Assembly: GCF_000018585.1 (NCBI RefSeq)
Contig: NC_009976.1
Location: 1,235,982-1,299,981, forward strand
Direction of reading: 5' to 3'
Length of the DNA stretch: 64,000 nucleotides
DNA from: Prochlorococcus marinus str. MIT 9211
GTDB lineage: Bacteria; Cyanobacteriota; Cyanobacteriia; PCC-6307; Cyanobiaceae
The translations under genes were made by a program, and so were the position numbers. Shown here one piece after another: positions 1,544 to 3,396 of the stretch (positions within the stretch are counted from its first letter, which is position 1; every line of letters starts with the position of its first letter). The notes beneath the pieces were generated by a model. That model searched no databases and was not told the DNA's origin. It was given only the letters and a program-made list of their open reading frames with translations.

Positions 1544-1804
1544 ATGCCAGATTCTCCTTCCGACTCAGAAAACAACTTTACGAAGAACAAGCTTTCATCT
1601 TTAGAACAAGTCAGCAAAGCGAGTCTCACAGAGGCAAAATGGATAGACAATAGCGGAGAAGCTGTAGAAAAAGTTTTCGGGTTCAATCAAAATGCAGAGC
1701 TAGTCAATGGAAGAGCTGCAATGTTTGGGTTCTTAATGCTTGTAATCACTGAAATAGTATTTGGAGGCCAAGCAACAACTCACAGTATTTTTGGTATCGG
1801 CTGA
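1544..1804 (+). CDS. hli: High-light-inducible protein (HLIP / small CAB-like protein)
   Basis: An 86-residue protein with the HLIP signature ExxNGRxAMxGF at residues 52-63 (E52, N55, R57), followed by one membrane helix (about 59-75). HLIPs are single-helix relatives of the plant LHC family. They sit in the thylakoid, bind chlorophyll and carotenoid, and protect or help assemble photosystems under excess light. The first 45 residues are hydrophilic and acidic, as in the longer HLIP types. In cyanobacteria, hli genes are controlled by the NblS/DspA kinase, whose gene is also in this window (26348-28408); that regulatory link is known for the family and only inferred here. Confidence 0.93.
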   Translation: MPDSPSDSENNFTKNKLSSLEQVSKASLTEAKWIDNSGEAVEKVFGFNQNAELVNGRAAMFGFLMLVITEIVFGGQATTHSIFGIG

Positions 1805-1864: not shown

Positions 1865-2080
1865 ATGAGCAGAAAGGATTGGATTGGTATTGCCTATGTA
1901 TCAACTTGGGTAATAATTTGGGGGACATTTGGATCCTTAATTGACTACCCACTACTTCAGAAAAGTATTTATAACGCTGGTTCTATAGGACAATTAACCA
2001 CTTTTTCCTTGACTGCCATAATATGCATTATTATGGCAATAGTAATATTTCCTAAAGTTAGAGATAGACTTACCAAGTAA
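1865..2080 (+). CDS. Small two-helix membrane protein, unknown (71 aa)
   Basis: It starts MSRKDWIGIAYVSTW and has two hydrophobic segments (about residues 7-28 and 43-62) separated by a short polar loop, ending in a basic PKVRDRLTK tail. It follows the HLIP gene by 60 nt on the same strand, so the two may be co-transcribed. Its size and layout fit the small thylakoid or plasma-membrane proteins common in picocyanobacteria. I do not recognise a named family. Confidence 0.65.
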   Translation: MSRKDWIGIAYVSTWVIIWGTFGSLIDYPLLQKSIYNAGSIGQLTTFSLTAIICIIMAIVIFPKVRDRLTK

Positions 2081-2124: not shown

Positions 2125-2376
2125 TTAATATCTATATCTTTCCAAAACGATTGCTGGGGCTGCTTCAACGCCTTTATTGAAAAGGATCCACTGCCTAGTC
2201 TCCAGGTCATGATCACAACCAAAGGTAGAGTCTTCTACATAATTATTCTGCATGTCAGCATGACATTGTTGATCAGCCTCAAAAGCAGATCCGTACTTAT
2301 TCAAAGAATTTTTTACTAAAAGAATTGTTATTAAGATAGCTAAGATAGTAGAAGCTACAATAAAAACTACTTTCAT
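2125..2376 (-). CDS. Small exported or membrane-anchored protein, unknown (83 aa)
   Basis: The N-terminus (MKVVFIVASTILAILITILLV) is a signal anchor of about 20 hydrophobic residues. The remaining 60 residues are polar and contain two cysteines (QCHADM and FGCDHD) about 16 residues apart that could form a disulphide outside the cytoplasm. It is transcribed opposite to the HLIP-side genes and points towards them. No family is recognised. Confidence 0.6.
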   Translation of the reverse strand: MKVVFIVASTILAILITILLVKNSLNKYGSAFEADQQCHADMQNNYVEDSTFGCDHDLETRQWILFNKGVEAAPAIVLERYRY

Positions 2377-2480: not shown

Positions 2481-2657
2481 TTAATCTTCTAAATTGCAGG
2501 TCAAATCACACTCTATTAATTCAGTATTTTCAAGCCTTTCAAGAATTCTTGTCATATCAACAGCTGAAAGCTCTCCATCAACACTCCATTTTAAAGTTGT
2601 TTTCCTCTGAAGAGGTGCCTTGCCATTGTTAAAGCCTGACTGCCTTGGATTACTCAT
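2481..2657 (-). CDS. 58-aa acidic C-terminus protein, unknown
   Basis: The frame can be read from 2735, but the ATG at 2655-2657 (MSNPRQSG) has a strong AAGGAG 6 nt upstream, so I chose it. The protein has a basic middle (PLQRKTTLKWSVDG) and an acidic end with two cysteines (IECDLTCNLED). A helix is likely at SAVDMTRILERLENTE. It is small, soluble and unassigned. The structured RNA and the 21-nt palindrome at 2762-2782 lie upstream of it in the same intergenic region. Confidence 0.6.
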   Translation of the reverse strand: MSNPRQSGFNNGKAPLQRKTTLKWSVDGELSAVDMTRILERLENTELIECDLTCNLED

Positions 2658-2782: not shown

Positions 2783-2837
2783 CCCTAGTTGCAGTAAGGA
2801 TGGTTGCAAATATAGAAACATTGGCAATAATGAAAAC

Positions 2838-2932
2838 GTGAGGAGTTGAGATTCACTAAGGAGTCGAAACTAGGAAAGACTTCCTTGTTGAATCTCAAAG
2901 AGACCCTGCCTTCGGCAGGGTCTCTTTTTTTA
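2838..2932 (+). ncRNA. Structured small RNA with intrinsic terminator, Yfr2/Cyano-1-like
   Basis: No protein frame occupies this stretch. Two stacked helices are visible: 2846-2855 pairs with 2889-2898 over 10 perfect base pairs, then 2858-2865 pairs with 2878-2886 with one bulged T at 2881. They close a 12-nt loop GAAACTAGGAAA. A 12-bp terminator hairpin (2899-2910 with 2914-2925) and a T-run follow. A roughly 95-nt RNA with a purine-rich conserved-looking loop and a terminator fits the cyanobacterial Yfr2-Yfr5 (Cyano-1) family, but that name is from memory of the family. The 5' end is estimated from an AT-rich -10-like stretch near 2825-2831. The existence of an RNA is more certain than its name. 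Confidence 0.65.
2899..2931 (+). terminator. Rho-independent terminator of the small RNA
   Basis: AGAGACCCTGCC (2899-2910) and GGCAGGGTCTCT (2914-2925) form 12 perfect pairs around TTC and are followed by a T-run. It is one of the strongest terminators in the window and has no coding gene directly upstream on this strand. Confidence 0.9.
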
Positions 2933-3090: not shown

Positions 3091-3396
3091 CTAGCGACCA
3101 ATATTATATATAAAGTCTTTAAATCCTGGGACATAGAAATAAAGGCCAACTGCAACAAGCAGCAGCATATTTAATGCTAGTACAAGAGCTCCTAGGATAA
3201 TCCTGGTTTTTTTACTAGGAACTTTATATTCTAAAACTCCAGGAATTCTTAAAAGGACATCTTCCTTACTTGCATTTGCCTCAACCGTAGAATTAGAAGA
3301 AGCTTTTGCTGATTTCTTAGATTTTACGTTACGGTCTAAAGAATCTGGCTTTTGGGATTTAGCCTCTCCTTCAGAAACTTTTTTTGATTCAGCCAT
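3091..3396 (-). CDS. Single-helix membrane protein with Lys/Ser-rich N-terminus, unknown (101 aa)
   Basis: Residues 1-45 are low-complexity and charged (many Lys, Ser, Glu, Ala). A short conserved-looking block (LLRIPGVLEYKVPSKK) precedes one membrane helix at about residues 66-90, and the end is FKDFIYNIGR. The layout predicts a cytoplasmic disordered head on a single anchor. The charged head could bind partners electrostatically. I do not recognise a named family. Confidence 0.65.
   Translation of the reverse strand: MAESKKVSEGEAKSQKPDSLDRNVKSKKSAKASSNSTVEANASKEDVLLRIPGVLEYKVPSKKTRIILGALVLALNMLLLVAVGLYFYVPGFKDFIYNIGR

Follow-up and report, generated by a model that had tools for sequence, protein, structure and literature searches.

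The stretch at positions 2838-2932 on the plus strand of our window, a 64,000-nucleotide piece of the Prochlorococcus marinus MIT 9211 chromosome, raises two questions: which RNA, if any, is encoded there, and with what does it pair? Yfr2 is known from nearly all cyanobacteria, where it ranks among the best conserved and most abundant small RNAs; its purpose is a matter of continuing debate. A preliminary description had assigned the locus to the Yfr2/Cyano-1 family by its shape and had suggested an Infernal search against the Rfam Cyano-1 model. That search bore out the assignment, returning a full-length match to RF01701 at 2832-2899 (+), complete over model positions 1-69 of 69, with 52.3 bits against a curated cut-off of 41 bits and E-values of 3.2e-6 in the window search and 2.0e-8 in the whole-genome search. 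As the Cyano-1 motif has been linked to the Yfr2 family (PMC8400943), we consider it close to certain, on the question of identity alone, that 2838-2932 (+) is yfr2. The broader reading, which combines this identity with the mechanism set out below and makes yfr2 a free-standing gene for a trans-acting small RNA, is probable but less secure. Cyano-1 matches were present in 71 of the 79 genomes searched, the one described here being the only match in the MIT 9211 genome (G000, one contig of 1,688,963 bases), while phage records searched for yfr2 carriage gave no match. Because Yfr2 has been reported in all cyanobacteria analysed, we treat this copy as already known: it is a single, well-preserved and ordinary member of its family.

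The predicted fold agrees with this placement. For the 95 nt at 2838-2932 the computed folding energy is -46.7 kcal/mol, and the wider region around yfr2 gives z = -6.65. With the terminator left out (2838-2899), the hairpin reaches -23.0, compared with -12.8 +/- 2.8 for dinucleotide shuffles, of which 2 in 500 were as good; the structure of the preliminary description is thus real and not a chance fold. Its first nine nucleotides, GUGAGGAGU (2838-2846), are unpaired and complementary to ACUCCUCAC in Yfr1 and Yfr10. This conserved part had gone unmentioned in the preliminary description, and 72 of 75 family copies start with GTGAGG and 57 of the 75 with GTGAGGAG. An outer helix follows, pairing 2847-2855 with 2889-2897, and stacked on it is an inner helix in which 2857-2865 pair with 2878-2880 and 2882-2887, a bulged U at 2881 splitting the 3' arm (2878-2887) and the helix into 6 + 3 pairs. 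Two stacked helices had been described, and two are found, with lengths of 9 and 9 bp in place of the 10 and 8 bp first given; the 12-nt loop reported between their arms, GAAACUAGGAAA (GAAACTAGGAAA as DNA), lies exactly at 2866-2877 and is strongly conserved in relatives, mostly as GAAACAAGGAAA. A 12-nt loop on a long helix with a bulge four positions from the loop is a trait of the family (PMC2662882), and the spacing between this loop and U2881 reproduces it.

The inner helix is kept by compensatory changes. When 36 distinct family members were aligned, both sides had changed at 7 of its 9 pairs, and its covariation score was 0.582, as opposed to 0.195 in shuffled alignments and at most 0.201 for slid partners. 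Double-change cells numbered 90 against 37 after shuffling, and 86.5% of cells pair. Relatedness among the sequences is corrected by the shifted-partner control and not by the shuffle control, and the margin of the score is large. These values describe the inner helix only, the outer helix being ragged in this alignment. The MIT 9211 RNA therefore resembles Yfr2-Yfr5 of MED4 and yfr2 of SS120 in its covariance match, GUGAGG 5' tail, 12-nt GAAACnAGGAAA loop, single bulged nucleotide near the loop, terminator, predicted length of about 90-95 nt and possession of its own promoter. It differs in being the single yfr2 copy of a genome without Yfr1, and in a loop U where most relatives have A, a form shared with SS120 and a few others.

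The 5' end was placed by comparison with SS120. A Cyano-1 match in genome G012, at 556643-556707 (-), coincides with the published SS120 yfr2 (complement 556612..556701; PMC1242208), and on this coincidence we took G012 to be SS120. The match starts 6 nt ahead of the published Yfr2 5' end, and the same offset applied here predicts an RNA start at 2838, in agreement with the start previously proposed. A consensus scan found a sigma-70-like promoter at 2804-2831, consisting of TTGCAA (2804-2809), a 16-nt spacer and AATAAT (2826-2831), so that the -10 box, by consensus match only, ends 6 nt ahead of the predicted start; a strict TTGACA-TATAAT promoter was not found for yfr2. Downstream, the terminator scan found one intrinsic terminator where 0.3 were expected, at 2897-2932, with a 13-14-bp stem and 3-nt loop (2897-2927) followed by a U tract. 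It is joined directly to the helices, as had been stated, its stem being longer than the 12 bp then given. Promoter and terminator are both seen in the sequence, and by homology transcription from this promoter would begin at 2838 and give an RNA of about 90-95 nt, made up of the unpaired tail, the long hairpin displaying its loop, and the terminator.

Could these 95 nt be no separate RNA at all, and instead belong to an mRNA leader, act only as a terminator or encode a small protein? The terminator is indeed strong, and a 35-aa frame opening with TTG (2846-2953) crosses the RNA, so the earlier statement that there is no coding frame does not hold literally; its sense survives, as the covariation and the family match oppose coding. 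Both flanking genes lie on the minus strand, hence yfr2 does not form the leader or the 3' end of a plus-strand mRNA. Together with the full Cyano-1 match, the compensatory changes and a conserved promoter element, this leaves such a reading extremely improbable, and we proceed with yfr2 as a gene of its own.

The locus is syntenic in three relatives (G001, G002 and G012), with the order hli-like gene, two small genes, 58-aa gene, yfr2, 98-106-aa gene, gluQ and HU; the 58-aa gene was not found in G012. Between cyanobacteria, yfr2 loci are generally not conserved (PMC6778093). For the gene to the left of yfr2, at 2481-2657 (-), the start is probably at 2657 (58 aa) and not at 2735 (84 aa), since conservation in G001 and G002 is confined to the shorter part; its product matched no Pfam or NCBIfam family. 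The reading frames at 1865-2080 (+), 2125-2376 (-) and 3091-3396 (-) likewise encode small proteins of no known family and are syntenic with yfr2 in the same three genomes. About 1 kb from yfr2, and also syntenic in relatives, an 86-aa protein with a chlorophyll a/b-binding signature of the high-light-inducible type is encoded at 1544-1804 (+). SS120 has three Cyano-1 matches in all, and its copy syntenic with that of MIT 9211 (1298860-1298929; L020, L052) differs from the yfr2 listed in 2005 at 556612-556701 near rpsU (PMC1242208).

Upstream of the promoter lies a perfect 9+1+9 palindrome, AACTGTCAC-T-GTGACAGTT (2763-2781), a candidate operator centred 66 nt ahead of the predicted RNA start. 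It is unique in the window, and its 17-base core is unique in the whole genome, where the next best sites carry 3 mismatches and occur at control level. The palindrome precedes yfr2 in further genomes too, and the half-site G[AC]CAGT occurs 67 to 55 nt ahead of the Cyano-1 match in 36 of 72 yfr2 promoters, compared with a mean of 2.9 and a maximum of 10 in 200 shuffles. In MED4, the GntR regulator PMM1637 binds the yfr2 promoters at CGRE1, a motif present nowhere else in that genome (PMC6778093). The MIT 9211 palindrome shares this lack of a second genomic copy and is possibly CGRE1; it is probably bound by the one GntR-type protein of this genome, encoded in the region of G000:C1:1588287, a link that would make Yfr2 responsive to light and nitrogen state, as it is in MED4. 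We also considered the palindrome as an operator of the minus-strand neighbour gene and rejected this, as that gene is not found at the G012 locus (L052), where the palindrome still precedes yfr2.

If the locus encodes Yfr2, what is its partner? The best-documented contact of Yfr2, established in MED4, is made by the unpaired 5' end with the CUCCUCAC motif of Yfr1 and Yfr10, and not by the loop. There, Yfr2 pulls down both RNAs and blocks their action on targets, reverses repression by Yfr1 in E. coli, and is thought to contact them via its 5' end (PMC6778093), as had been suggested earlier (PMC2518516). Yfr1, the usual partner of Yfr2, and Yfr10, which would stand in for it here, are partners and not members of the same family: they carry ACUCCUCACAC, and the Yfr2 tail is its complement. 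The Yfr1 model matched 64 of the 79 genomes, and Yfr1 was not found in G000, G001, G002 or G012; low-light II/III strains without Yfr1 have been described before (PMC2190773; PMC6778093).

As Yfr1 was not found, we searched for another RNA with the Yfr1 motif. The 9-mer ACTCCTCAC has seven sites in the MIT 9211 genome, about as many as the control. Five of them fall within long reading frames or on the strand opposite, another is simply the yfr2 tail read as its complement, and the last lies between genes. At this frequency the 9-mer alone is not specific, and the case rests on structure and conservation at one site. That intergenic site, at about G000:C1:1535063-1535006 (-) (L008) and ~296 kb from yfr2, holds a Yfr10-like RNA gene in which a TATAGT box is followed by the hairpin GGACA-CUCCUCACACAAU-UGUCC and then by a GGGCGC...GCGCCC terminator with a U tract. 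The Yfr1 motif ACUCCUCACAC is displayed in the hairpin loop, the trait by which Yfr10 is defined (PMC6778093). All four genomes without Yfr1 named above have a Yfr10-like hairpin with CUCCUCACACAA in the loop, followed by a terminator. Close relatives of this RNA lie directly upstream of yfr2 in several other genomes, so that homology, and not the motif alone, supports its identification as Yfr10; in high-light strains Yfr10 is likewise directly upstream of yfr2, and it has been detected experimentally in SS120 (PMC6778093). The Yfr10-like RNA is the only structured Yfr1-motif RNA that we found in the MIT 9211 genome. In G002, CTCCTCACACAA ahead of a GC-rich stretch (L109, G002:C1:864228-864260) forms a second site and is possibly another Yfr1-motif RNA. 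The loop variant CTAGG, present in G000-G002, G012 and G009 (which also gave no Yfr1 match), was examined as a mark of Yfr1 loss and dropped, as it also occurs in genomes with Yfr1 (L062 of G005, L094 of G003), and CAAGG is the form seen in other genomes that gave no Yfr1 match, several of which are incomplete.

With Yfr1 not detectable, the small RNA partner in MIT 9211 would have to be the single Yfr10-like RNA. The Yfr2 tail GUGAGGAGU and this RNA form 9 perfect pairs at -16.5 kcal/mol, a value reached by 2 of 1000 shuffles. An alternative duplex through the stem scores -24.5 when accessibility limits are removed, and cofolding of the two whole RNAs retains the tail pairing. Both genes and their complementarity are thus seen in MIT 9211; expression, binding and sequestering would follow by analogy with MED4. 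Yfr2 most likely acts by RNA-RNA sequestration: its 5' tail would bind the CUCCUCAC seed of the partner, whose mRNA targets would thereby be freed. The hairpin loop may make contact with additional RNAs.

Alternatively, Yfr2 may mainly pair directly with mRNAs and antisense RNAs via its loop or tail, contact with Yfr10 being secondary. Pull-down with MED4 Yfr2 recovered peaks of 302 mRNAs along with many antisense RNAs, so the capture of Yfr10 may not be the chief role of Yfr2; in the same strain RNase E removes the tail while the loop remains (PMC6778093). The strong conservation of the loop points the same way. The MIT 9211 genome shows no enrichment of loop complements when up to 1 mismatch is allowed, however (10 besides the gene itself, 30 in the reversed control), and we rejected the loop as a long antisense seed, although this crude scan excludes only long near-perfect pairing and not short seeds. 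As to the tail, codons 3-6 of petB (cytochrome b6), right after the start codon, carry ACTCCTCAC (G000:C1:338965-338973; L003, L152), and the tail can form 10 bp with this region at -17.1 kcal/mol. Of 19 relatives, 12 have the same nine bases, and all four genomes without Yfr1 are among these. Their synonymous conservation is nevertheless unexceptional, 15 of 105 four-codon windows being as high. As the whole gene start is similarly conserved at synonymous sites, we set petB aside as a conserved tail target and keep it as a lead; the main text of the MED4 study does not mention it (PMC6778093). On balance, we consider direct pairing unlikely to be the main activity, though it is the more serious of the competing accounts of how Yfr2 acts.

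Much less plausible is binding of a protein through GGA motifs, in the manner of the CsrA/RsmA-titrating RNAs RsmY and RsmZ. Yfr2 resembles these RNAs in having GGA motifs in unpaired regions, and several such motifs occur across its tail, its stem and its loop. The study that put this possibility forward for the family was itself unable to identify homologues of RsmA or RsmE in cyanobacteria (PMC2662882). Yfr2 differs from RsmY and RsmZ in lacking both a family match with them and an identified CsrA/RsmA homologue to titrate; its sequence bears no sign of protein binding. Capture of the Yfr10 seed by the tail thus stays our preferred account.

To the known family, this analysis adds a proposed Yfr10-like partner, which together with Yfr2 would make up a minimal pair in a lineage lacking Yfr1, as well as a palindrome as candidate GntR site and a syntenic yfr2 locus. 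We tentatively propose, with slightly more doubt than confidence, that in the low-light lineage that lost Yfr1 the three-RNA network has been reduced, within this genus, to one Yfr2 and one Yfr10, with Yfr10 as sole small RNA partner, and that the tail may also repress petB at its start codon. If this is true, MIT 9211 would amount to a knock-out of Yfr1 made by nature, and what Yfr2 does could be studied there in the simplest arrangement. A strain that has a single Yfr2 and a single Yfr10 but lacks Yfr1 is a cleaner setting for Yfr2 function than MED4, with its four Yfr2 copies, Yfr1 and Yfr10.
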